Below are positions 1,237-36,258 of a DNA stretch of 36,258 nt, one piece after another. A program made the translations under genes and the position numbers. The DNA is taken from assembly GCA_029247025.1 (NCBI GenBank), contig JAQWLZ010000050.1:1-36258 (forward strand), written 5' to 3'. Each line of letters begins with the position of its first letter. Position 1 is the first letter of the stretch. Source of the stretch: Alphaproteobacteria bacterium. Its GTDB lineage: Bacteria > Pseudomonadota > Alphaproteobacteria > TMED109. A model generated the notes under the pieces. That model was not told the DNA's origin, did no database searches, and worked only from the letters and a program-made list of their open reading frames with translations.

Positions 1237-3318
1237 ATGTCTCTAAAATTACTAGATGAATTATATAATAAAATTGATAAATTAAATGGATTTGGCCCAA
1301 AAAATATAATTTTATTTGATAAACTATGTGGCAGTAGATTATTAGATATTATATTTCATCTCCCAAATTCAATAATAAAAAGGGTAAAAATTAATTCATT
1401 AAAAGATGAATATATATATAAAAGAATAATTATAAACGGAAAAGTTAAAAGTACTTGGTTTAGCTATAAGAAACCCAAAATATCCATAGTAACATTAGAG
1501 GTTAGGAACCAAATATTAGAGATTATTTAATTTAATGTTAATCGAAATTGGTTTTTTAATAATTTTATAAAAGATAATGAAGTTATAATTAGTGGAGAGC
1601 TAATAAAAAAAGGAAATAAATGGCAAGTAATTCACCCAGATTATATAAAAAATAAAAAATTAGAAGAAATTATTCCTATTTATGAAACTACATATCCACT
1701 AACTTCAGGCTTATCCCATAAAAAAATTAAGGCTGCAGTAAAATATTCTACTTCAGAAATTCCAGGATTCAGTGAATGGATCGATTCAGAATTATTAAAA
1801 GATAAAAATTGGCAAAGTTTTAATAAATCGCTATTAAAATTACATTTTCCAAAAACATTAGAAGAAGTTGAAAATGCCCATCTATATAAAGAGAGGCTAG
1901 CATATGATGAAGCTCTTTCCAGACAATTAGCTTTAAATTTAATTAGAAAGCATAAACATAAAACCGAACAAAAAACTTTAATAAATATTAACACATTAAA
2001 AGAGAAGTTAATTAATAATCTGCCTTTTAAGCTAACTGATGATCAGCAGGATGTTTTAAAAATAATATATGAAGATATCAACTTAAATAAAAGAATGTAT
2101 AGACTCTTGCAAGGAGATGTAGGAAGCGGAAAAACTATAGTTGCATTCCTATCAATTCTTCATGTAGTGGAGCATGGATTCCAAGGTGCATTAATGGCTC
2201 CTACAGAAATTCTTGCATATCAACATTATTTATTCTTCAAAAAATATGAGAATATTCTGGGTATTCGTATAGCTTTATTAACTAGTAAAATGCAAAAAAA
2301 TATAAAAATAAATATTATTGATGATATTAATAATGGAAAAATTAATATTATAATTGGGACACATGCGCTAATTCAATCAAATATTAAATTTAAAAACTTA
2401 AGATTAGCCATTATTGATGAACAACATAGGTTTGGAGTTTATCAACGATTAGAGTTATCTAAAAAATCTCCAAATACAGATTTTATGGTTATGACTGCGA
2501 CACCTATTCCTCGAACTTTAGTTCTAACAGATTATGGCGATATGGATATATCCATAATACACTCTAAACCAATAAATAGAGCAAAAATAGAAACAATTAG
2601 TGTTAGTATTCCCAGAATGAACGAAGTTATTAAAGCTATTTCTCGGGCAATAAAAAATAACGAACAAATATTTTGGGTTTGTCCCTTAGTAAAAGATTCT
2701 GAAAAACTAGATTTAGCTGCAGCAGAAACAAGACAAAAATATTTAAATAATATTTTTCCAAATAATGTAGCTATCGTACATGGTCAAATGGATAGCCGGG
2801 ATAAAGAAAATTCATTACTTCAATTTAGTAAAAACGAAAAAAAAATATTAGTTTCAACGACTGTAATTGAAGTAGGTATAGATATACCAAATGCAACAAT
2901 AATGATTATCGAGCACGCAGAAAGGTTTGGCTTAGCTCAATTACACCAACTTAGAGGAAGAATTGGTAGAGGTACAAAAAATTCGGTCTGTATATTACTT
3001 TATGATCAAAAAATAGGAGAAATAGCCAGAGAACGCTTAACAGTTATGAGAGAAACAAACAATGGTTTCTTAATATCTGAAAAAGATTTAAAGCTTAGAG
3101 GTGCAGGTGAAATATTAGGGACAAAACAATCAGGCGGTCAAATGTTTAAAATATTAGATATTAATATACATGAAAATTTAATTAAAATAGCAAATAAAAA
3201 TTCAAAAATGATTATAAATAGAAACCCTAATCTTATCGGAATAGAAGGTGAAAAACTTAAACAACTTTTATATTTGTTCGGTCAAGATAAGGCAGTAAAA
3301 CTTATTAAATCTGGCTAA
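1237..3318 (+). pseudogene. recG: ATP-dependent DNA helicase RecG, interrupted by an in-frame TAA
   Basis: RecG remodels stalled forks and branched DNA. The frame from ATG 1237 (AGGAG 11 bases upstream) to TAA 3318 spans 694 codons counting the terminal stop, normal for RecG, but TAA at 1528-1530 interrupts it at codon 98. The same frame continues after the stop with clear RecG wedge-domain sequence (FNVNRNWFFNNF, EVIISGELIKKGNKW, HPDYI), so no frameshift is needed. Helicase motifs follow: Walker A GDVGSGKT at residues 293-300, DEQHRFG box from residue 394, TATPIPRT, then HGQMDSRDKE and QLRGRIGRG of the second RecA-like domain. The context GAG ATT ATT TAA TTT AAT suggests a TAT or similar codon became TAA. 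The second half has an internal ATG at 2095, so a fragment lacking the wedge might be made. A sequencing error is a live alternative. Confidence 0.85.
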
Positions 3319-3326
3319 TTTATATA

Positions 3327-3977
3327 CTAATTTTTATTTTTCATATATTTTTTTTTAAACTTTGGTGTAACTATACCACCAGATATCACCATTTTTATAC
3401 CTTCTTCTACATTCATATTTAAAACTCTTAAATCTTTTCTAGGAACAAAAAGTAAAAAACCTGACGTTGGATTTGGAGTAGTTGGTAAAAATACGTTAAC
3501 TAGTTCGTCTTTTGATGTTTCTTGAACTTCTCCTTGAGTCTCTCCTGTAATAAAACCAATTGCCCATATTCCTTTTCGTGGATATTCAATTAATACTACT
3601 TCTCGAAAAGATTTTGATGATGTTTTAAGTACACTTTCAAAGATTTGTTTTAAGGCACCATATACCGATCTAATAATAGGTAATCGAGCTATAATTCTTT
3701 CACCTAATTTAATAATATATCTGCCAATAATTCCTGCTGTTAAAAATCCTATAAAAGTTAACATAATAAAAACAATTAAAAGCCCAATTCCAGGTACCTC
3801 AAAGGGCAAAATATTATCATAATGATATTTTACTGGTATGATATTTCTTACTTTACTATCAATGAAACCAATAAATAATAAAGATACATAAAAAGTTAAT
3901 CCTATTGGCGCTGTAACAATTATACCAGTAAGAAAGTATCCTCTAATTTTTGTAAATATACTTTTTGTATCTTTCAT
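3327..3977 (-). CDS. DUF502 family inner-membrane protein
   Basis: This 216-aa integral membrane protein belongs to the DUF502 family, whose function is not established. A cytoplasmic N-terminus leads into transmembrane segments at about residues 12-36 and 60-86. The family-typical soluble part follows: RLPIIRSVYGALKQIFESV, then the VVLIEYPRKGIWAIGFITG strand pair, FLPTTPNPTSGFLLFVPR, and IKMVISGGIVTP near the C-terminus. The length is usual for the family. It ends 8 bases from the convergent recG end and lies 19 bases downstream of the dehalogenase-like gene, so it may share that transcript. Family assignment is confident; the role is unknown. Confidence 0.82.
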   Translation of the reverse strand: MKDTKSIFTKIRGYFLTGIIVTAPIGLTFYVSLLFIGFIDSKVRNIIPVKYHYDNILPFEVPGIGLLIVFIMLTFIGFLTAGIIGRYIIKLGERIIARLPIIRSVYGALKQIFESVLKTSSKSFREVVLIEYPRKGIWAIGFITGETQGEVQETSKDELVNVFLPTTPNPTSGFLLFVPRKDLRVLNMNVEEGIKMVISGGIVTPKFKKKYMKNKN

Positions 3978-4951: not shown

Positions 4952-5425
4952 ATGATTAAATATTTTTTATTATGCACATATATATGTTTTTTAAGTACTC
5001 TTTGCTATAAATATACTTTTTCTTATGATGAAGGTGATTTAGAAAAACTTCTTATAGATAACGAATGTATTAATTGTGATTTATCTGAAGCAGACTTAAG
5101 AAAACAAAATTTAGTTGGAGCAAACCTAGAAGGTTCAAATTTAGACAAAGCTAATTTATGGAGAGCAAATTTAGAAGGAGCAAACCTTAAAAACTGCTCT
5201 TTAGAAGGTGCTAATATTAGAAGAGTTAATCTACAAAATACTAATTTGGATAATAGTTCATTTAGGTGGGCAATAATTAGGCATTCAATGATGGATGGTG
5301 CTTCAGCAATAAATGCTGATTTTAGAAAAGCTGGAATAAGAAAAACAAGCTTTAAAAATGTTATTTTATGTAATAGTAATATGAAATATGGAATTGATAA
5401 CTCAGGATGTAAGAAAAATGATTAA
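4952..5425 (+). CDS. Exported pentapeptide-repeat protein
   Basis: This 157-aa protein starts with a hydrophobic export signal (MIKYFLLCTYICFLS) ending near residue 24. After a short CINCDLSEADL cap, tandem A(D/N)LXX pentapeptide repeats run from about residue 42 to 145, for example ANLEGSNLDKANLWRANLEGANL. Such repeats form a right-handed quadrilateral beta helix. The C-x-x-C at the repeat entrance (CINC) and the cysteine near the C-terminus may form disulfides in the periplasm. The biochemical role is unknown. The reading frame overlaps the start of the next gene by 8 bases, so the two are translationally coupled. The region 4867-4951 is a divergent promoter region shared with the hydrolase gene. 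Confidence 0.8.
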   Translation: MIKYFLLCTYICFLSTLCYKYTFSYDEGDLEKLLIDNECINCDLSEADLRKQNLVGANLEGSNLDKANLWRANLEGANLKNCSLEGANIRRVNLQNTNLDNSSFRWAIIRHSMMDGASAINADFRKAGIRKTSFKNVILCNSNMKYGIDNSGCKKND

Positions 5426-5933
5426 ATTATTAAAAATTATTATTATTATTCTAGTAATCTCACCAAAAGTATTAATGTCTGCTGATATGTCTGGTTACTT
5501 GTTAAGTAAAGCTATCAAAGAATTTAATAATAAAAACTATGAGTCTGCTTATAAATCTCTTACAAATATAGCTCCGACAGGAAACCCAGTAGCAAATTAT
5601 CTTTTGGGACAAATGTATTTAAAAGGATTAGGTATAGAACCTAATTATAAAATTGCGTATGATAAAATCTTATACTCTTCACAAAAATTATTTAAACATG
5701 ATAAATCTTTAGCAATAGAATCTCAAATTACACTTTCAAATATGTATGCTAATGGTATTGGAACTGATATTGACGCATCAAAAGCCTATATGTGGTCATT
5801 CATAGCTTATAAAACTAGTGAAAACATACATTTAACATACCTAGAAAGTCTTAAATCATCTGTGGCAGTAGATGATATTAAGGATATAGAAAAAAAAGGC
5901 CTAAAACTTTTAAAAAATATTATAAAAGATTAA
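5418..5933 (+). CDS. Exported Sel1-like (TPR-type) repeat protein
   Basis: This protein of about 171 aa probably starts at ATG 5418, which opens a signal peptide (MIKLLKIIIIILVISPKVLMSAD). The longer in-frame start at 5388 would add ten charged residues ahead of it and is less likely. Two Sel1-type repeats are visible: ANYLLGQMYLKGLGIEPNYKIAYD, shown here as two adjoining helices, and LSNMYANGIGTDIDASKAYM. Both have the G.G.. turn and the A.... helix pairs of the family. Sel1 repeats usually mediate protein-protein contacts. The start overlaps the stop of the upstream pentapeptide gene, which suggests a two-gene unit of periplasmic proteins. No specific function can be assigned. Confidence 0.75.
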   Translation: MIKLLKIIIIILVISPKVLMSADMSGYLLSKAIKEFNNKNYESAYKSLTNIAPTGNPVANYLLGQMYLKGLGIEPNYKIAYDKILYSSQKLFKHDKSLAIESQITLSNMYANGIGTDIDASKAYMWSFIAYKTSENIHLTYLESLKSSVAVDDIKDIEKKGLKLLKNIIKD

Positions 5934-10664: not shown

Positions 10665-13433
10665 CTATTCAGCGGCTATTTCAATTTTATTAACTTTAGC
10701 TGCACAAAATTTAAATTCAGGTATTTTACCGAATGGGTCTAATTGCGGATTTGTTAAAATATTTGCAGCAGCTTCACTAAAACAAAATGGCATAAATATC
10801 ATTCCTTCAGGCAATTGCCAATCTTGTCTTACCGCTACAGATACAAAGCCTCTTCGTGTAGAAACCTTTACATTCTGACCAGGTTCTATGTTCATTTTTT
10901 TCATATCAATTGCATTCATACATAAAATAGCATTTGGTTCTATTCCATCAAGTATTTCCGAAGTTCTAGTCATAGCACCAGTGTGCCAATGTTCTAATAA
11001 TCTACCAGTAGTTAAAACTAATGGAAAGTTCTCATCTGGTATTTCTGCAGGTGATACTAATTGAGCAGGAACAATTTTACCTCTTGTATCTTCAGTAGGA
11101 TAACCTTCAACAAATATTATATCATTACCCGGACTATTTATATCATCACATGGGTATGTCACACTATGCTCTTTTTCTAACCTTTCCCAAGTAATATTAT
11201 TTAAAGAAGGCATTACCATGGACATTTCCTTGAATACATCAGATACGTTTTTATATTCCCAATTCATTCCTAAAGAATTAGCTAGATCAATAATAATCCT
11301 CCAATCTTCTCTTGCTTCGCCTGGAGGAGTTATTGCTTTCCTTCCCATTTGTACTTGTCTATTTGTATTTGTAAAAGTACCATCTTTTTCTGCTGCTGCA
11401 GAAGCTGGTAAAATTATATCTGCAAACCATGCAGTCTCTGTCATGAATATATCTTGTACAACCATATGTTCTAATTTAGCCAATCCTTCTCGGGTATGGT
11501 TTTGATCTGGATCAGACATAGCTGGGTTTTCTCCCATCACATACATACCTTTAATATTGTCGTTAATAACTTCATTTATTATTTCTACTACAGTTAAACC
11601 TTTTTTCTTATCTAATTTCTTTCCCCAAAAATCTTCCATTTTACTATAAATTTGTTCATTCTCTACTGAATTATAGTCCGGATACATCATTGGAATTAAA
11701 CCAGCATCAGAAGCTCCTTGAACATTATTTTGCCCTCTTAATGGATGTAGACCAGTTCCAGGACGACCAATTTGTCCAGTAATTAATGAAAGCGTTATTA
11801 AGCATCTCGCATTATCAGTTCCATGGACATGTTGAGATATTCCCATACCCCAAAAAATTATCGATTTTTCAGAGTTAGCATATACTCTTGCAACTTTTCT
11901 AAGTGTGGAAGAATCAATTCCACATTTTTCAGACATAAGTTCTGGAGAAAAGCCTGCAATAGAATTTTTTAACTCTTCAAAACCATTAGTCATTGATTGG
12001 ACATATTGTTTATCATACAATTCTTCTTCAATAATAGTATAAATTAAAGCATTTAGCATAGCTACATCCATACCTGGTTTAAATTCTAAATGCTCCCAAG
12101 CATGCCGTGACATATCGTTTTTTCTTGGGTCCATAATAATAATTTTTGTACCTTTTTTAGCAGCCTGTTTTATATAAGTAGCAGCAACAGGATGATTTGT
12201 AGTAGGTCTAGCACCAATTATAATAGCACAATCAGAATCTTCAGTTGCTGTAAAAGGAGCAGAGACAGCACCTGATCCCACACATTCTAATAATGCAGCG
12301 ACAGAAGATGCATGGCATAATCTTGTACAATGATCCACATTATTAGTAACAAAAGCAGTTCTAATTAGTTTCTGGAATAAATAAGCTTCTTCATTAGATC
12401 CCTTTGCTGACCCAAACCCACATAAAGCAGATGAACCATTATATTTTAAAATATTTTTAAACCCCTTGGCAGAAATTTCTATAGCTTCATCCCAGGAAGC
12501 TTCCCTAAAATAATCTTCAATTCGTCTATCTTTCTTATCTAAAATATACCTATCTTTAGGGGCATTATCCTTTCTAATTAAAGGTTTTAATAATCTTTTA
12601 TCATTATGAACATAGTCAAACCCAAAGCGACCCTTAACACATAATCTCTGATTATTTGCAGGCCCGTCCCTTCCATCGACATGTAATATTTTATTATCTT
12701 TTACATGTACTTTAGTCTGACAACCTACGCCACAAAATGGACATAATGAATTCACACTTTTATCACTATATTTATCCCTCTTTCCATCTTCATTTACTAA
12801 CGATTTTTCTATTAATGCACCTGTTGGACAAACTTGAACACACTCTCCACATGCTACACAGCTTGAATCACCCATACCATCATCAAAATCAAAAGTAATC
12901 TTTGATTTATGACCTCTATAAGACATACCTATTACATCATTAACCTGAACTTCTCTACAAGCTCTTACACATAAGTTACAATTAATACAGGCATCTAAAT
13001 TTACGTGCATTGCTTTATGAGTAATATCTCTTTTTATATCTTTAATTTTAGGATACTGACTTGTATTAATATCCATCTTATCCACCCAATTCCAAAACTT
13101 TGATTCTGGATCTGGATGATTTTCTCTACACGGTTGATCTGCGGAAAGCAGCTCAAATACAGACTTTCTTGCTGAAACAGATCTATCAGAATCTGTATTA
13201 ATTTTCATCCCTTCAGAAGGTTTCCTTATACATGATGCAGCAAGAACTCTTTCCCCTTCTATCTCAACCATGCATGCTCTGCAGTTTCCATCTGACCTAT
13301 AACCAGGTTCATCAGCATGACATAAGTGAGGGATATTTATATTTTTACGCTTAGAGACTTCCCATATAGTTTCACTAGTACTAGCCTCTACTTCATTTCC
13401 ATTTATATAAAATTTAATTTTATCTTTGCTCAT
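10665..13433 (-). CDS. fdsA: NAD-dependent formate dehydrogenase, catalytic alpha subunit
   Basis: The catalytic subunit oxidises formate to CO2 at a Mo- or W-bis-MGD centre. This 922-aa chain has, in order: an N-terminal [2Fe-2S] domain (C38, C51, C54, C68); a His-Cys segment before the ferredoxin part; two [4Fe-4S] motifs (C149, C152, C155, C159 and C192, C195, C198, C202); the molybdopterin-domain cluster (C231, C234, C238, C265); and the active-site metal ligand C373 followed by H374 (HCTRLCHAS). It uses Cys, not selenocysteine, at the metal. The C-terminal dinucleotide-binding domain includes LTTGRLLEHWHTGAMTR. It starts 7 bases after the beta-subunit stop. Architecture matches soluble NAD-dependent enzymes such as Methylobacterium FDH1 and Rhodobacter/Cupriavidus FdsA. 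Mo versus W cannot be decided. Confidence 0.93.
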   Translation of the reverse strand: MSKDKIKFYINGNEVEASTSETIWEVSKRKNINIPHLCHADEPGYRSDGNCRACMVEIEGERVLAASCIRKPSEGMKINTDSDRSVSARKSVFELLSADQPCRENHPDPESKFWNWVDKMDINTSQYPKIKDIKRDITHKAMHVNLDACINCNLCVRACREVQVNDVIGMSYRGHKSKITFDFDDGMGDSSCVACGECVQVCPTGALIEKSLVNEDGKRDKYSDKSVNSLCPFCGVGCQTKVHVKDNKILHVDGRDGPANNQRLCVKGRFGFDYVHNDKRLLKPLIRKDNAPKDRYILDKKDRRIEDYFREASWDEAIEISAKGFKNILKYNGSSALCGFGSAKGSNEEAYLFQKLIRTAFVTNNVDHCTRLCHASSVAALLECVGSGAVSAPFTATEDSDCAIIIGARPTTNHPVAATYIKQAAKKGTKIIIMDPRKNDMSRHAWEHLEFKPGMDVAMLNALIYTIIEEELYDKQYVQSMTNGFEELKNSIAGFSPELMSEKCGIDSSTLRKVARVYANSEKSIIFWGMGISQHVHGTDNARCLITLSLITGQIGRPGTGLHPLRGQNNVQGASDAGLIPMMYPDYNSVENEQIYSKMEDFWGKKLDKKKGLTVVEIINEVINDNIKGMYVMGENPAMSDPDQNHTREGLAKLEHMVVQDIFMTETAWFADIILPASAAAEKDGTFTNTNRQVQMGRKAITPPGEAREDWRIIIDLANSLGMNWEYKNVSDVFKEMSMVMPSLNNITWERLEKEHSVTYPCDDINSPGNDIIFVEGYPTEDTRGKIVPAQLVSPAEIPDENFPLVLTTGRLLEHWHTGAMTRTSEILDGIEPNAILCMNAIDMKKMNIEPGQNVKVSTRRGFVSVAVRQDWQLPEGMIFMPFCFSEAAANILTNPQLDPFGKIPEFKFCAAKVNKIEIAAE

Positions 13434-29785: not shown

Positions 29786-30712
29786 ATGAGTTTTATTGCT
29801 GCGGTTATACAAGATAGTCCTATTGTTTTCGACCTAGACGCTACTATTGATAAAGTAGAAAAATTAACTAAAAAAGCAAAAGAGAAAAATGCTGAACTTG
29901 TAGTTTTTCCTGAAGCATTTATTTCTGCCTACCCAAAAGGTTTAGATTTTGGCGCAAGGATTGGAATGAGATCAAAAGAAGGTAGGTTAATGTATTCTAA
30001 ATATTATAATTCCGCATTAGATTTTAATAGCAAACAATTTAAAACATTATGTCTAATAGCAAAGAAATATAAAATATTAATGAGTATAGGTGTAATAGAA
30101 AAAGATCATGGAACCTTATATTGTACAGTATTATTAATATCTAATAAAGGTGAATATTTAGCCAAACACAGAAAAGTTATGCCCACTGCTATGGAAAGAT
30201 TAATATGGGGGTTTGGTGATGGCTCAACACTTCCAGTTATCAATACTAATATTGGTAAAATTGGATCAGTTATTTGCTGGGAGAATTATATGCCACTTAT
30301 GAGAATGGCAATGTATTCAAAAGGCATTCAATTATATTGTGCACCAACTGCAGATGATAGAGATACATGGATTTCTTCTATGACTCATGTAGCTCTTGAA
30401 GGAAGATGCTTTGTGTTTTCGTCATGTCAATATCTATTAAGAAAGGATTGTCCAGATTACTACAATCCAATACAGGGAAATGATAAAAAAACTATAATTA
30501 TGAATGGTGGTTCTTGCATTATAAATCCCTTAGGGGAAATAATTGCCGGCCCCTTAAGAGAAAAATCAGGTATACTTACAGCTCAGATCGATCTTAATGA
30601 AATTATAAAAGGTCAGTATGATTTTGATGTCAAAGGTCACTATTCCAGACCAGATATTTTTAAATTAAGTATTAATGAAAAAGAAAATAAACCAGTAGAA
30701 TATAAAAGCTAA
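29786..30712 (+). CDS. Nitrilase-family carbon-nitrogen hydrolase
   Basis: This 308-aa enzyme has the Glu-Lys-Cys triad of nitrilases: E43 in VVFPEAFISAYPKG, K130 in KHRKVMPTAMERLIWGFGDG and C164 in GSVICWENYMPLMRMAMY. The FPEAF...YP and CWENYMPL forms are those of true nitrilases (aryl- or aliphatic), not of amidases or NAD synthetase domains. Length is typical and the protein is cytoplasmic, acting as a helical oligomer in known members. AAGGA lies 8-9 bases before ATG. It is the last ordinary gene before the tRNA-Lys remnant. The nitrile it hydrolyses cannot be read from sequence. Confidence 0.88.
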   Translation: MSFIAAVIQDSPIVFDLDATIDKVEKLTKKAKEKNAELVVFPEAFISAYPKGLDFGARIGMRSKEGRLMYSKYYNSALDFNSKQFKTLCLIAKKYKILMSIGVIEKDHGTLYCTVLLISNKGEYLAKHRKVMPTAMERLIWGFGDGSTLPVINTNIGKIGSVICWENYMPLMRMAMYSKGIQLYCAPTADDRDTWISSMTHVALEGRCFVFSSCQYLLRKDCPDYYNPIQGNDKKTIIMNGGSCIINPLGEIIAGPLREKSGILTAQIDLNEIIKGQYDFDVKGHYSRPDIFKLSINEKENKPVEYKS

Positions 30713-30744
30713 AATTTTTATATTATAACTTTATATTGTAACTT

Positions 30745-30789
30745 TGGTGAGCCCTGTAGGGATCGAACCTACGACAAGCTGATTAAAAG
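30745..30789 (-). pseudogene. Displaced 3' half of a tRNA-Lys(TTT) gene (att remnant)
   Basis: The minus strand has loop CTTTTAA (anticodon TTT), stem TCAGC, variable TTGTC, the T arm GTAGG-TTCGATC-CCTAC, acceptor strand AGGGCTC, A and CCA. The matching 5' half is absent: the bases before the loop read GATGC rather than GCTGA, and no GAGCCCT follows at the right distance. The break in the anticodon loop, next to an integrase gene, is typical of an integration end where the original 3' half was pushed aside. Confidence 0.85.
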
Positions 30790-33124
30790 GCATCATTTCC
30801 AGCTATAGTATACCCTTCTATACCACAGACTTTCCTAGTTATCTGCCAAATAATTATAATTAATATGTCTATATTATCTGTTATATTAAAATAGATGTTG
30901 TACCTGTGTTGTACCAATTGAAAAAATATGTAATGACAAGTGTAAATATAACACACACATACAGGTATATAATGGCATTTAACAATACAGATCTGCAGAA
31001 GTTACTGAATGAGAGTAAGATTAAAACCATATTATCCTATGGTGGAAATACAGGACTACGAGCTAAGAAGTTAGCTAATAGAGTCTCCTTTCAAGTTAAT
31101 AAAAGAATTAAAGGTGGTAAGAATACTTCTACTATAGTTGGCTATTACCCTGACATCTCTCTCAAGGATGCATTACAAAAAGCCCATGCTATAAGAACTG
31201 ACGCAGATGCAGGACTTAATCCAAGATTAGAAAAAATTAAAAGAAAAACTGTAGTGACTAAAGGATTAAAAACTTTAGAAGATTGTATTAATGATCATAT
31301 TTATGACAAGGAATCTGCAAGGAGTACTCCTATTCCTGCTAATACTATTAGGCAAACATGGTCAGCATTTAGACTGTGTTCACCAAACCTATTGCTTAAA
31401 CCTATTGCAGAAATTACTCCTAATGAACTGCGAGAATGTTTTAACTTTATGTCCTCAAGCCAATACAAGAATAGAAATGGAACTTTTGGTGCTCGAAGAC
31501 AAGCAGAGATATGGATGTCCTATACTAAAGCTGTATTTAGAATGGCTCACGAGATTAAAGATTATATAGATGTTAACCCCTGCCCTAAAGCATTTTATAA
31601 AATCACAAGAGAAATAAAAAGCTATGACCATTTCTTACAACCTTCAGAAGTTTCTAAAATGATTGAGCTGATAAATGATATGGAATCATACCCAGAATCT
31701 TTTATTAGATATGATGTAATTGGACATAGGCTTACTCAATATCAAGCTATAAAATTAACTGTACTTACTGGTTTGAGAAATGCTTCAGAGCTTTATATTA
31801 TCAAATGGTCAGATGTTAAATTAGGTGTTAACAAACCAACTTTTACTTATACTACCTCCAAACAGCAACAGCCTTTAGAAATACCTATTACACCAATAAT
31901 GGCTGAAGTATTTAAAGATCAAGCTAAAAGAAGGTGTAATGAGTATGTATTTGCAGGAACTTTGAATGCTAAAGATCCAAATACACATATCAAAGGTGTC
32001 TGGAAAGCTATGGTCAGATTAAGAGAACTATTAGCTAGTAGTTCTGATTTAAAACAATTTCAAAATTCAGAGGTCTTTAATAATTTAATGCTTCGACACA
32101 CCTTCACAACTTTGGGAAATAGAATTGGAATACCTATTGAAAAGTTAGATGCTATGTCAGGACATATTCAAACTACTCAAAGAAAAGTTGCTACGACTCA
32201 ATACATTTCTAGGATTGCAGAAGATATGCGAGAAGATTTTATTAGGCTTCACGAGTTTATGCTCGCAGGTAAAGATTTTGAAGATAAAGAAATGTCAGAA
32301 GAAACCATTAAATTAAAACATAATAGTTTAGTGGCTAGACTAAATACACCTAGAGCAAGACAATCAAAATTAAATTATTTTAATGAAAATTACACAGCTA
32401 CTTATTTAGGACAAGCGACTAGGATTTTAAAAGTTTCGAAGCATCACTATACAAGATTCTATGAAGACTTAGGTGAAGGAAAAAAACATTACGAGCCAAT
32501 ACTTGAGATGACTGGCTATCTAATTGAGTTACCTAAATTTATTGTAAAGAGCTTACCTGAATTTGTTAGAAGAGAATATTATACTCTGGTTACAGAGAGA
32601 GAACTATCTGAAAATAGAGCAGAAGCCTTAAAGGGTTTTGATATATCTGATCAAGAATTAGATGAGGGAGATACCTATAATGAAAAAACTGGAGAATTTA
32701 CAAACTTAAAAATAATTCAGAAGATTAGAGACGAGCTAGGAGATACATATAAAAACTCTGATTACTATAAGAAGATGCCTGAAGCACAATTAGAAAAATA
32801 TAAAGCACAACAATATGAGAATTGGAACAACTTGGCTAAGATGGTAAAGCATCCTGATGCAAAAATTACTGGAGGTGATGTTCCTAAATTTATTGCAAAT
32901 GCATTAAAACCTACAGAGGAGAAATGGCAAAGACTTTTAAATAGAGGATCATTAGACTTCCAACCAATCCTCCTAGATAACCAATATAGATTTGATAAGT
33001 ATAGTGCTCTTAGGAAAGCTATTGATAAAAGTCCAGATGACCCAATAGCACAGAAAGCTAAAGTGCAATTAGTAGCTATGGAAAAAGAGGTAAATGACTT
33101 TATAGAATCAAAGAGGTTAAGTAG
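30790..33124. mobile_element. Integrase module bracketed by two unrelated tRNA halves
   Basis: The interval holds one tyrosine-recombinase gene, a possible arm-site pair, and nothing else that I can support. Its left edge is the anticodon loop of a tRNA-Lys 3' half, its right edge the anticodon loop of a tRNA-Thr 5' half, both on the minus strand. It may be the end of a larger island running right, a remnant after deletion, or an assembly junction. The region 30790-30896 before the integrase shows only an inverted repeat (GTATA/TATAC) and no gene. Confidence 0.6.
30897..30915 (+). repeat. Paired 8-bp direct repeat GTTGTACC, period 11 (possible integrase arm site)
   Basis: GTTGTACC occurs twice, separated by TGT, so the repeats are one helical turn (11 bp) apart on the same DNA face. 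The pair lies about 55 bp before the preferred integrase start. It shares the TGTAC core and the 8+3 spacing with two AGTACACA pairs near 34.6-34.7 kb. Tandem arm-type sites for the N-terminal domain of tyrosine recombinases have this arrangement. Confidence 0.5.
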
Positions 33125-33134
33125 TTACCAATGA
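30972..33134 (+). CDS. Tyrosine recombinase/integrase with DUF4102-like arm domain and long C-terminal extension
   Basis: This integrase has 720 aa from ATG 30972; an upstream GTG at 30906 would add 22 poorly conserved residues. Residues below use the longer 742-aa frame. The N-terminus (LSYGGNTGLRAKKLA, IVGYYPDISLKDALQKAHAI, up to about 107) resembles the DUF4102 arm-binding domain of P4-type integrases. The core and catalytic parts follow: R291 (TGLRNASEL), K319, R397 (LRHTFTTLGN), H420 (MSGH) and nucleophile Y433. The box II His (HxxR) is Leu394 here. About 300 residues follow the tyrosine, far more than usual, mostly helical and charged, with no domain I recognise. The last codons (TAC CAA TGA) lie within the tRNA-Thr remnant, so the present C-terminus may be a product of the insertion. 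Confidence 0.8.
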   Translation: MAFNNTDLQKLLNESKIKTILSYGGNTGLRAKKLANRVSFQVNKRIKGGKNTSTIVGYYPDISLKDALQKAHAIRTDADAGLNPRLEKIKRKTVVTKGLKTLEDCINDHIYDKESARSTPIPANTIRQTWSAFRLCSPNLLLKPIAEITPNELRECFNFMSSSQYKNRNGTFGARRQAEIWMSYTKAVFRMAHEIKDYIDVNPCPKAFYKITREIKSYDHFLQPSEVSKMIELINDMESYPESFIRYDVIGHRLTQYQAIKLTVLTGLRNASELYIIKWSDVKLGVNKPTFTYTTSKQQQPLEIPITPIMAEVFKDQAKRRCNEYVFAGTLNAKDPNTHIKGVWKAMVRLRELLASSSDLKQFQNSEVFNNLMLRHTFTTLGNRIGIPIEKLDAMSGHIQTTQRKVATTQYISRIAEDMREDFIRLHEFMLAGKDFEDKEMSEETIKLKHNSLVARLNTPRARQSKLNYFNENYTATYLGQATRILKVSKHHYTRFYEDLGEGKKHYEPILEMTGYLIELPKFIVKSLPEFVRREYYTLVTERELSENRAEALKGFDISDQELDEGDTYNEKTGEFTNLKIIQKIRDELGDTYKNSDYYKKMPEAQLEKYKAQQYENWNNLAKMVKHPDAKITGGDVPKFIANALKPTEEKWQRLLNRGSLDFQPILLDNQYRFDKYSALRKAIDKSPDDPIAQKAKVQLVAMEKEVNDFIESKRLSSYQ

Positions 33135-33161
33135 CGTGCTCTACCCCTGAGCTAAGGCGGC
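33125..33161 (-). pseudogene. 5' half of a tRNA-Thr(GGT) gene, 3' half missing
   Basis: The minus strand reads acceptor GCCGCCT, TA, D arm GCTC-AGGGGTA-GAGC, A, stem CGTCA and loop TTGGTAA (anticodon GGT), a good tRNA-Thr. After the loop comes CTACTTAACC rather than TGACG, so the anticodon stem cannot close and the T arm and 3' acceptor strand are absent. The break again falls in the anticodon loop, at the end of the integrase gene. Its acceptor strand does not pair with that of the tRNA-Lys half. Confidence 0.85.
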
Positions 33162-33212
33162 TTATTAGCTTTCAATATCATATTATATTTAAGTTGGGTA
33201 AATATTTTTTAA

Positions 33213-33289: not shown

Positions 33290-34318
33290 TTACTTCCACC
33301 AAGAAGCTGTTCTAGCTATGAACTCTTTAGTAACATTTGGATGGAAGGGGCACTGCGATATTTTTGCCATATTAGGTTCTTTATGTGTAGGTGACAAGAC
33401 GCTTTTTTTGCGCGCTCTTTCTTGTGTTAAAATTTTGGAATGAGGCAATACTCTCTCTTTCATAGTAAAGACTAGCCATACTACTTTCTTTATTATTACA
33501 CTCATCAAAGGGTTGGGTTTATCCATTTGCATGACTTCACGAGTACGAGGTGTTTGCAGTGTTAGCACAAATTGTCGCCCTGCCCAGTGAAGAAAACTTG
33601 GTAACCAGGCATCATTGAACTGTTGAGTGATAGCCTCAGCAAGTTTTTTACCAGAATCTGATTTAGCCCATGGATAATTTTCAAACTCTTCGGCATGACG
33701 CATCATGGCATCCCATGACTCAGGAAATTCTTCAATTTGACCTTCTTGACTCCTGAACTGACCACATAGACTTTGCCAAAAAAGGTGTGCAGCGATTTTT
33801 TGTTTTTCAGAAAAGCCGCGAGCTCCTACGGAGATTTTAACTCTGTGCAGTCCAGTTGCTATCCAAACACAGGTATAAATAAAGTCTCGAGCAGGGTAGT
33901 GTCCAGGAAATTTTTTATTTAGTGCCATGTGAATCTTATTAACAGTCTCTAAAGATCTACGTACGTCAGGATGAGATGGCCCCAATTCAAACCATTGCCA
34001 AAACCGGTGATTAGTTTCAGTAAGGCGAAATTGCTGGTCGTTCAGAACTTGTCCTGTGTTGTCAGTTAACATTGAGCTAGTCTTAGGAGCCATTGTGAAG
34101 GCGGGCATTCCAAGAGTATAAAGAACATTTAAAATGAAATCGCGATAATAGTAGCTAGTTGTTAAAGTCCATATTTGCTCGTAGTGTGTGTATGGATCTA
34201 GTTTTTCAATCTCGCGCTCCACCCAATGATAACCTCGCTTATTAAGTTCTGCGCGAGGCATGTAGTCGGCAAAAGCTTCCTGTCTTAATTGTTCTTCATT
34301 ATTTATAATAGCTTCCAT
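33290..34318 (-). CDS. MpaB-type oxygenase / DUF2236 family protein
   Basis: This 342-aa protein looks like the DUF2236 family, which includes the bacterial latex-clearing (rubber) oxygenase Lcp and fungal MpaB. The visible family pattern is RLTETNHRFWQWFELG, then HPDVRRSLETVNKIHMALNKK with FPGHYPARDFIYTCVWIA and GLHRVKI, helical segments that carry conserved His and Arg; which His would bind haem is uncertain. The C-terminal 60 residues are basic and contain QCPFHP. It has no signal peptide. Sampled sequence is near 40% GC, against well under 30% in the integrase and lar genes, so recent acquisition is likely. A terminator follows, and the AT-rich region 34319-34911 precedes it. The family call is moderate. 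Confidence 0.6.
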   Translation of the reverse strand: MEAIINNEEQLRQEAFADYMPRAELNKRGYHWVEREIEKLDPYTHYEQIWTLTTSYYYRDFILNVLYTLGMPAFTMAPKTSSMLTDNTGQVLNDQQFRLTETNHRFWQWFELGPSHPDVRRSLETVNKIHMALNKKFPGHYPARDFIYTCVWIATGLHRVKISVGARGFSEKQKIAAHLFWQSLCGQFRSQEGQIEEFPESWDAMMRHAEEFENYPWAKSDSGKKLAEAITQQFNDAWLPSFLHWAGRQFVLTLQTPRTREVMQMDKPNPLMSVIIKKVVWLVFTMKERVLPHSKILTQERARKKSVLSPTHKEPNMAKISQCPFHPNVTKEFIARTASWWK

Positions 34319-34417
34319 TTTGATTTCCCCCCCATTTTCAAAATTATGAATTTAGGTTAAATCAAAATAGGACTAAAATACAAGCAATATGTATTACAAT
34401 ACTTTTTTATTGAATTT

Positions 34418-34498
34418 TTACATTCTGTAAATAACTAAACTAATAGTAATAACTACAATAAATACGACTGCTATACTTATTAAAAAAGATAAACTCAT
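34418..34498 (-). CDS. Possible 26-aa single-pass membrane peptide
   Basis: The minus-strand frame ATG to TAA reads MSLSFLISIAVVFIVV then ITISLVIYRM, one uninterrupted hydrophobic helix with a basic end. There is no clear ribosome-binding site, and AT-rich DNA can yield such frames by chance. The location just upstream of the MpaB-like gene, on the same strand, is the only supporting context. Confidence 0.25.
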   Translation of the reverse strand: MSLSFLISIAVVFIVVITISLVIYRM

Positions 34499-34592
34499 AT
34501 TCAAATAATACACTAAAAAAAGAGAAATGCAAAATAGAGGGTTATTATACTATAGGGTTATGATGTTAACGTAAGTTGAAATTTATAGAGTT

Positions 34593-34611
34593 AGTACACA
34601 TTTAGTACACA
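34593..34611 (+). repeat. AGTACACA direct-repeat pair, period 11 (copy 1)
   Basis: AGTACACA is repeated after TTT, giving an 11-bp period. On the minus strand the unit reads TGTGTACT, sharing TGTAC with the GTTGTACC pair by the integrase. A second such pair lies 118 bases downstream, with similar flanks (TTCAT, TAATCAT, TAATG). It may be an arm-type binding site of an integrase related to the one at 31-33 kb. Confidence 0.55.
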
Positions 34612-34710
34612 CTTTCATACTAATACATCATTTAATCATACATTATAAAATATTAATGTAATTACGAATTTTTGACTTCCTGTATAGGTTAAATATCTCA
34701 AGGTAAGGCT

Positions 34711-34729
34711 AGTACACAAATAGTACACA
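34711..34729 (+). repeat. AGTACACA direct-repeat pair, period 11 (copy 2)
   Basis: AGTACACA is repeated after AAT with the same 11-bp period as copy 1. The bases after it resemble those after copy 1 (TTTCATTAATG and CTAATCATGTATT), so the two blocks look like an old tandem duplication of roughly 80-100 bp rather than isolated short repeats. Confidence 0.55.
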
Positions 34730-34911
34730 CTATTTCATTAATGCTACAGCTAATCATGTATTCTGTAATGTATAGTGGAAGCTAAATAGTTATGGTAGAT
34801 AAGGATTAGAAGGGTATAAAGTGGTTAGGTTTAGTACTTATTAGATGCTAAAGGAAAATATATACCAGAAGAGCCTGAAGGTATAGATAAAGTACTAAGC
34901 ATATCCATCAG

Positions 34912-36258
34912 TTAAAGAGCAAAGGCATATTGCACATAAATATTTGTTTCACTCATGGATTGATAGGATAGCGATTGATGTTGTATTGTGGTGGCAATAC
35001 TATGACCACCTGAGATACTATACTCTAATCCAAGAGAGGCTATGGGAAGTGTAGCATTATAATCATCTTCCAAGTCGATACGTTGCAAACCATTTAGACC
35101 ACTAGGAGCAAGGTTGTCGATAGTATGATGGATATTATGATTTACTGCGAGTGCACCATTAAGATTTATAGAGGTGGTAAGAGGTTTGATAAATTTTATT
35201 CCTGCTATTAATGCTAATGTTTTAGCCGAGATTTCATTATACGTTAAGGGATAATCTGCAGTGGTTTCGGTAAAACTATCGATGGTTTTGTTACTATAAC
35301 GCAGTACTCCATAAGGAGATATGGTTAGTGTATTTTGTTGATAGTTATATTTTACTTCTGCAGCAGTATCATAAGCAGCCATTTGAGTTTCCCCTGTTCC
35401 TTTAAACGATACCCCAACTTTAGGACGGGTTAATGCCAGGTTTTGTTGTTGAAAGGCATGGGATAATTTCATTGCATACCCGGAATGATTATCTTTTTGG
35501 TTCCATACTAAAGATCCTCCCACCATTGGTTGTTGTTTATCCACTGTCATGTTTTTGGAATCATAATAATCATGGTTATTATCGTAGAACAATGCCACAC
35601 GGAATTGCTCACTAAATTTCTTTCCCAGTAAAAATGCGGAACTATGTTTGGAGGCATTGGCATTGGCAATCATGGTACCACGACCACCAACCGAGAAACA
35701 CCAGTTGTGTGTACCAAAAGTATCACAATCATAGTTGATATGAGCAAAACTCATGGTGTCTGCAAAGTTAAAGGCAGTGCGGAGTGTTGGAGCGACTTCG
35801 GATGTTAAGGATAGTTTTGTTGAAGTATCTATTGAACCACCTATGGATAAAGCCCAATTTGATCCGTTTGTATTGAATAAATTCCAAGCATAAGAAATGC
35901 TGTCAATCGTGATTGTTCCCGAAGATGTATCTATATTACTACTCGTTAAACCCATAAGGACATCTTTATAGGTAGTATTTACTTTGGCTGAGGAAGTAGA
36001 ATGTATACCAAAATCTAGTTCTCCAGAGGGACTAGTAAAATTTGTCATACCAAAATCGGAGGTGCTATTGATAATAATATTGTAATTTACAGGAAGAGTA
36101 GACTGCCATTCTATATAATCACTACCAACTTTTCCTTGGTCATTGTTAAAGGTCGTAATAGTACCACTATTGTTATAAATATCTATTTTATCAGTACCAG
36201 CAGAGAGTGTTCCTGTATTGGTTAAAGTGGTGATAGTGCCAGTATTATATATTGCATA
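34912..36258 (-). CDS. Autotransporter-type outer-membrane protein, C-terminal part (5' end beyond window)
   Basis: At least 448 codons are open from the window edge to TAA 34912-34914; the ATG at 36048 is internal because the frame continues upstream without a stop. The first 70 visible codons are passenger-type repeats, NTGTITTLTNTGTLS and YNNSGTITTFNNDQG, spaced like a beta-helix. The remaining roughly 280 C-terminal residues have alternating strand patterns (FSVGGRGTMIA, ISPYGVLRYS, LALIAGIKFIKPL) and end IYVQYAFAL, consistent with a 12-strand autotransporter barrel inserted in the outer membrane, though the last residue is Leu rather than the usual Phe. Sampled GC is near 40%, higher than the core genes. 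Such proteins are large and variable and often act in adhesion; no specific role is claimed. Confidence 0.75.
   Translation of the reverse strand, partial: YAIYNTGTITTLTNTGTLSAGTDKIDIYNNSGTITTFNNDQGKVGSDYIEWQSTLPVNYNIIINSTSDFGMTNFTSPSGELDFGIHSTSSAKVNTTYKDVLMGLTSSNIDTSSGTITIDSISYAWNLFNTNGSNWALSIGGSIDTSTKLSLTSEVAPTLRTAFNFADTMSFAHINYDCDTFGTHNWCFSVGGRGTMIANANASKHSSAFLLGKKFSEQFRVALFYDNNHDYYDSKNMTVDKQQPMVGGSLVWNQKDNHSGYAMKLSHAFQQQNLALTRPKVGVSFKGTGETQMAAYDTAAEVKYNYQQNTLTISPYGVLRYSNKTIDSFTETTADYPLTYNEISAKTLALIAGIKFIKPLTTSINLNGALAVNHNIHHTIDNLAPSGLNGLQRIDLEDDYNATLPIASLGLEYSISGGHSIATTIQHQSLSYQSMSETNIYVQYAFAL

Follow-up and report, generated by a model that had tools for sequence, protein, structure and literature searches.

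The window analysed here – the whole stretch of 36,258 nt – makes up all of contig C54 in a draft genome from an Alphaproteobacteria bacterium of the TMED109 lineage (GCA_029247025.1, JAQWLZ010000050.1), an assembly of 1.50 Mb in 73 contigs that is 74.6% complete. Near its right end lie, in order, a nitrilase-family gene, the 3' half of a tRNA-Lys(TTT) gene, a single tyrosine-recombinase gene, the 5' half of a tRNA-Thr(GGT) gene with its flank, a gene for a DUF2236 protein, a short peptide ORF and an autotransporter gene (Table 1).

Table 1. Positions of the features discussed, in the window unless contig C68 of the same assembly is named
Feature	Position	Strand	Details
Nitrilase-family (CN_hydrolase) gene	29786..30712	+	Pfam CN_hydrolase 1.3e-52; resident neighbour of tRNA-Lys(TTT)
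attR core	30744..30794	-	51 bp identical to putative attP of phage contig L135
tRNA-Lys(TTT) 3' half	30789-30745	-	CTTTTAATCAGCTTGTCGTAGGTTCGATCCCTACAGGGCTCACCA; identical to 3' part of tRNA-Lys(TTT) in genome G004
Arm-type repeat pair	30897..30915	+	GTTGTACCTGTGTTGTACC (GTTGTACC); 11-bp phase; between att core and integrase start
Tyrosine recombinase	30906..33134	+	742 aa from GTG; PF00589 2e-09, PF13356 7e-07, PHROG 1 integrase 5.1e-26
tRNA-Thr(GGT) 5' half	33161-33125	-	GCCGCCTTAGCTCAGGGGTAGAGCACGTCATTGGTAA; first 37 bases of the intact gene on contig C20
tRNA-Thr type 5' flank (promoter region)	33162..33211	-	Carried with the Thr half
DUF2236 / MpaB-like oxygenase gene	33290..34318	-	342 aa; cargo; 38-45% identity to plasmid proteins
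Single-span peptide ORF	34418..34498	-	26 aa; MSLSFLISIAVVFIVVITISLVIYRM and variants; accompanies the DUF2236 gene in three places
Relic of autotransporter gene end	34542..34589	+	83% over 48 bp to C20 7457-7504
Arm-type repeat pair	34592..34610	-	GTGTACTA; 11-bp phase; putative second specificity
Second GTGTACTA arm-type repeat pair	34710..34728	-	11-bp phase
Match to 3' flank of tRNA-Lys(CTT) in genome G001	34756..34796	-	41 bp, 87.8% identity
Autotransporter gene	34912..36258	-	Cargo; Pfam Autotransporter 6.7e-11; cut by contig end
tRNA-Lys(CTT) 5' half	C68 3446-3405		Follows resident SDR gene
tRNA-Lys(CTT) 3' half	C68 1517-1476		Precedes resident nitroreductase gene

The Thr half runs from the first base of the tRNA to position 38 and the Lys half from position 32 to the CCA end, each retaining the entire anticodon loop, as att junctions do. 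With the intact tRNA-Thr(GGT) gene on contig C20 of the same assembly, the longest exact match of the Thr half extends over 43 bp (33167-33125). Exact tRNA segments of 37 and 45 nt, both broken at an anticodon-loop edge, leave no room for chance. A sequence-only reading had described these halves on the minus strand with one tyrosine-recombinase gene between them and neither tRNA rebuilt in the window: identity to intact genes bears out the halves and their places, the ORF between them has Pfam Phage_integrase and Arm-DNA-bind_3 matches over the cut-off, and neither half is called as a whole tRNA by ARAGORN or Rfam. Intact copies of both tRNAs, which that reading proposed to seek elsewhere in the genome, turned up for one of the pair: a tRNA search of the draft assembly recovered intact tRNA-Thr(GGT), on C20, as well as tRNA-Lys(CTT), and no intact tRNA-Lys(TTT) was found in what is an incomplete assembly.

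The origin of the Lys half emerges from related genomes. In four of the same genus (G002, G004, G005 and G006), the nitrilase orthologue adjoins an intact tRNA-Lys(TTT) in the same orientation, which identifies the half as a resident gene split by insertion; beyond that tRNA, in G004 and G006, lies a gene read from its sequence as tgt. When the window is aligned to relatives, the match spans the nitrilase gene and the Lys half and ends at the loop, so that foreign DNA starts at 30790. Searches of the 74.6%-complete assembly found neither tgt, the expected upstream gene of the locus, nor a tRNA-Lys(TTT) 5' half.

The junction itself has a close counterpart in a phage contig, L135 (IMGVR_UViG_3300006916_001701 in IMG/VR), found by an exact pattern search with the tRNA half alone. 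At 5395-5444, L135 carries the tRNA-Lys(TTT) 3' half as a putative attP, with phased arm-type repeats (AGTATTCACAA) on both sides of the core; the 51 bp shared with the window include five non-tRNA bases, GATGC, where the host gene has GCTGA. The two also differ: the attP of L135 lies beside the phage's own integrase gene, whose product shows no detectable relationship to the window integrase in a direct comparison, the arm repeats of the two are unlike each other, and the arm motif of the window integrase was not found in viral contigs. Taken together, the split resident gene, the 51-bp identity to a phage attP and the arm-type repeats give the anatomy of an attachment site, and the Lys junction is an ordinary attR. 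That the tRNA is not rebuilt here is expected, since the rebuilt copy should be at the other end of the island, off the contig. Of the features by which Islander defines a tRNA-anchored genomic island, a split target tRNA with its displaced fragment in native context and a tyrosine integrase within the island are present; a third, a regenerated intact tRNA in the same orientation at the other end, would belong to the island end that the assembly lacks. From its position we infer that the window integrase made the insertion into tRNA-Lys(TTT).

Alignment of the integrase reveals the catalytic set R, K, R, H and Y. The GTG start overlaps the arm repeats, which makes the ATG at 30972 the likelier start, and the TGA stop codon falls within the Thr half, at the bases of the Thr loop. 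The C-terminal extension, roughly 280 aa long (32376-33131), has no Pfam match and no known relatives; a structure prediction for the integrase reached a mean pLDDT of 37.9, and a PDB sequence search returned chance matches only. Single-sequence searches found no relatives of the integrase in genome contigs, viral contigs or phages; alignment searches found none in viral contigs and only two in genome contigs, G016 and G024 (records titled Rhodospirillaceae bacterium), both of which lack the C-terminal extension. A class-wide search of 385 genomes found the integrase in its own genome only, so the hope of meeting a tRNA-Thr or tRNA-Lys junction beside the same integrase in related genomes was disappointed across those genomes and the contig collections; the arrangement, with its seam at 33125, is known from one genome.

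In both relatives, the N-terminus of the integrase also faces a tRNA or a tRNA half. Immediately upstream of the G024 relative, which is 27% identical to the window integrase, stands a tRNA 5' half that is not rebuilt (G024:C3:40000-56915, about 11063-11107), apparently, to judge by its bases, of Thr(TGT), and repeats phased at 10 bp lie between the half and the integrase. Only two other recombinases were found in the window's own genome, apparently XerC and XerD to judge by size and score; the genome has no known Thr-specific integrase. Beside two other integrases from the genus (G001:C102 and G003:C32), the adjoining stretches examined contain no whole tRNA gene.

Repeat runs phased at 11 bp are concentrated in the 5.5-kb island, with three inside it and one in the other 30.7 kb of the window; shuffled sequence gave a mean of 0.08, and 0 of 500 shuffles reached three. 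The two distinct repeat sequences suggest that at least two integrase specificities may be represented. Inverted copies of the TTGTACC arm were sought on the other side of the integrase and not found, and 30790-33124 is therefore not established as a self-contained element; near 33125 there are no arm-type repeats.

The Thr side has a different history from the Lys side. The resident tRNA-Thr(GGT) gene stands intact on C20 between an SDR gene, which borders it on the 3' side, and autotransporter and ProX-like genes, which lie 5' of it. The 5' flank of this gene is unlike the one carried with the half, and the half thus does not come from the resident gene. In viral contigs, patterns taken from the Thr 5' and 3' halves turned up no split tRNA-Thr: one hit intact tRNA-Thr genes only, and the other two had no hits. 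Half and flank together match G001:C7 most closely (98.7% over the 77 bp of 33125-33201), followed by G006 (94% over 33125-33211) and the organism's own C20 (88% over the 84 bp of 33125-33208). In a 5'-fragment island at a resident tRNA-Thr, an intact Thr gene would lie downstream of the displaced fragment; here, the resident Lys locus lies to the left of the half and the intact Thr gene is on another contig. The 5' side of tRNA-Thr(GGT) varies among the genomes: in G006 there is nothing (G006:C19), in the window's own genome (C20 7483-9964) and G004 (G004:C12) there is a 764-aa autotransporter gene, and in G001 there are probably DUF2236 and others.

The DNA beyond the Thr half consists of pieces with counterparts beside tRNA genes. 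The DUF2236 protein, whose best plasmid match is likewise annotated DUF2236, has a second copy on the organism's own C68 (88% amino-acid identity) and a third in G001 (96% over 122 aa). In G001, one contig ends just upstream of tRNA-Thr and another begins inside the DUF2236 gene, with ProX further along, so that across the gap the gene probably adjoins tRNA-Thr on its 5' side. The autotransporter relic has its matching gene end on C20, on the 5' side of tRNA-Thr and adjoining ProX, and the truncated autotransporter gene shares related stretches with the autotransporter gene beside tRNA-Thr on C20. The short match to a tRNA-Lys(CTT) 3' flank may be a further island seam. The region is a mosaic of tRNA-linked cargo. 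The peptide ORF and the DUF2236 gene occur together at 33290-34498 in the window, at 2123-3286 in L050 (C68) and at 1-587 in L052, the peptide lying upstream in two of these places and downstream in the third.

The genome contains a second insert that bears on the interpretation. On C68, a 1.9-kb insert (1476-3446) splits the resident tRNA-Lys(CTT) at its anticodon loop, and the target is not rebuilt; in a paper comparison that counts the 7-bp TAATCAG common to both halves a single time, the joined halves show no mismatch in 76 positions to the intact tRNA-Lys(CTT) of G002. The insert has 16-nt inverted ends (88%) and TTTAACCAC-type repeats near both ends, and along with its DUF2236 gene it carries a complete, divergent tRNA-Lys(CTT), 20 of whose 76 positions differ from the G002 gene. 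The insert thus neither rebuilds its target nor deprives the cell of tRNA-Lys(CTT). It is the cleaner lead of the two: such an element would target an essential tRNA gene without rebuilding it, replacing the host tRNA with a foreign one. In the interval from the SDR gene to tRNA-Lys(CTT), genomes G006, G001 and G007 hold different cargo – a 644-aa gene resembling MORN repeats, a 140-aa gene and a 233-aa gene – and no tRNA half was noticed in these intervals where their sequence was read.

Our preferred interpretation, to which we give a probability of roughly two in three, is that a composite genomic island entered the resident tRNA-Lys(TTT) at its anticodon loop, that its right end (attR) lies in the window, and that the Thr half is the end of an imported module. 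The integrase would have inserted the island into the Lys loop, and the off-contig end would carry a rebuilt or replacement tRNA-Lys(TTT). The Thr half would have arrived as part of the island, together with its promoter and the adjoining DUF2236 gene, as the end of a rarer kind of element that carries a tRNA 5' half, and tandem accretion may have brought its module next to that of the integrase, or the junction may be the closed att site of a circular form. If the half is an imported end, the Thr seam joins two island modules rather than two resident tRNA genes. The C68 insert counts in favour of this interpretation, as the same kind of cargo gene sits in a second tRNA-anticodon insert of the same genome; the position of the seam, exactly where the integrase ORF ends, counts against it, as accretion does not predict such a coincidence, and so do the single occurrence of the seam, the missing island end and the absence of a known Thr-specific integrase from the genome. 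The other end of the Lys(TTT) island is absent from the 74.6%-complete assembly, and the history of the Thr seam is one that we infer. Among the three explanations put forward in the sequence-only reading, a collapsed pair of islands comes closest to the composite island, and both an integrase that recombines between tRNA genes and a chimeric contig are disfavoured.

According to the first of these disfavoured explanations, a Thr anticodon-loop site was joined to the Lys(TTT) site by rearrangement between two tRNA genes – by the integrase, or by homologous recombination between two integrated copies of an element – and the DNA to the right of 33161 is a former Thr locus. The geometry is indeed that of attL and attR of one 2.3-kb element, on the same strand and with a full loop in each half, and a precedent exists in the archaeon Thermococcus nautili, where the integrase IntpTN3 inverts chromosomes between tRNA genes (PMC5495485). 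Yet a joining of two resident tRNA genes fails on the Thr side, where the resident gene keeps both its neighbours and the flank of the half is not the resident one; integrase-driven recombination between resident genes would leave both of them rearranged together with a reciprocal junction, and searches of the incomplete assembly turned up no reciprocal Lys 5'/Thr 3' product. The two loops, TTGGTAA and CTTTTAA, agree in only four of seven bases, and IntpTN3 itself failed in vitro on the tRNA-Leu/tRNA-Thr pair tested (PMC5495485). We consider such a rearrangement unlikely; pairs of half tRNA genes need not signify it, since the seams of islands can carry pieces of other tRNA genes.

An error of assembly or amplification that joined unrelated pieces at 33125 or 30789 would be in character for a 73-contig draft of 74.6% completeness, and the 43-bp exact repeat shared with C20 ends precisely at 33125. 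A misjoin at such a repeat, however, would have to lead into DNA that follows a further copy of the Thr half, and an integrase ORF that lacks such a copy does not qualify. A chimeric contig is quite unlikely, given that each break coincides with an edge of an anticodon loop and that the core of the Lys junction recurs in an independent phage attP. Least probable is a single element with two att cores – Thr-type at the integrase 3' end and Lys-type on its 5' side – that could enter either tRNA gene: an integrase stop codon within the Thr loop, arms and a Lys core at the integrase start and DUF2236 cargo probably at tRNA-Thr in G001 would suit it, but arm-type repeats are missing near 33125, the flanks of one core are not an inverted copy of the other's and no second example was found.

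Beyond this one locus, the composite island can be drawn out into a more general picture, which we offer as doubtful: that in this genus small cargo modules move between different tRNA genes via their anticodon loops, some bringing a 5' half and some a complete replacement tRNA, and that the integrase module can link an end of Thr type with a target of Lys type, leaving the assembly of islands unrestricted by tRNA identity. More modestly, the window illustrates that in a marine alphaproteobacterium with a small genome a tRNA island can be a patchwork, with fragments of other tRNA genes at its internal seams.

Set beside known systems, the window seems to combine tRNA islands of known kinds, as a patchwork, and not to be the work of a new kind of recombinase. 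With the class A islands of Islander, which carry a 3' fragment and cross over in the anticodon loop (PMC4383910), it shares a split resident tRNA, a 3' half in native context, and an integrase with arm-type sites just inside the island end; it differs in that its integrase is next to the displaced fragment and not next to a rebuilt tRNA, that a rebuilt end would be off the contig and that a foreign tRNA 5' half stands inside the island. Islands with a 5' fragment make up 159 of the 3919 in Islander (PMC4383910), so a carried tRNA 5' half is rare but not new; there, as here, a 5' half with its promoter marks the element boundary at the anticodon loop, whereas the half in the window lies inside another island, with no intact tRNA-Thr adjoining in the correct configuration. 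By their general description, the tycheposons of Prochlorococcus, also reported in Methylophilaceae, are similar in being tRNA-anchored cargo islands with tyrosine recombinases in small-genome marine bacteria (PMC10872708). IntpTN3 is likewise a tyrosine recombinase that acts at tRNA genes, but the resident tRNA-Thr of the window organism is unrearranged and no reciprocal junction accompanies it. What is unusual, by comparison with all of these, is the meeting of the 5' half of one tRNA with an integrase whose start adjoins the 3' half of a different tRNA.
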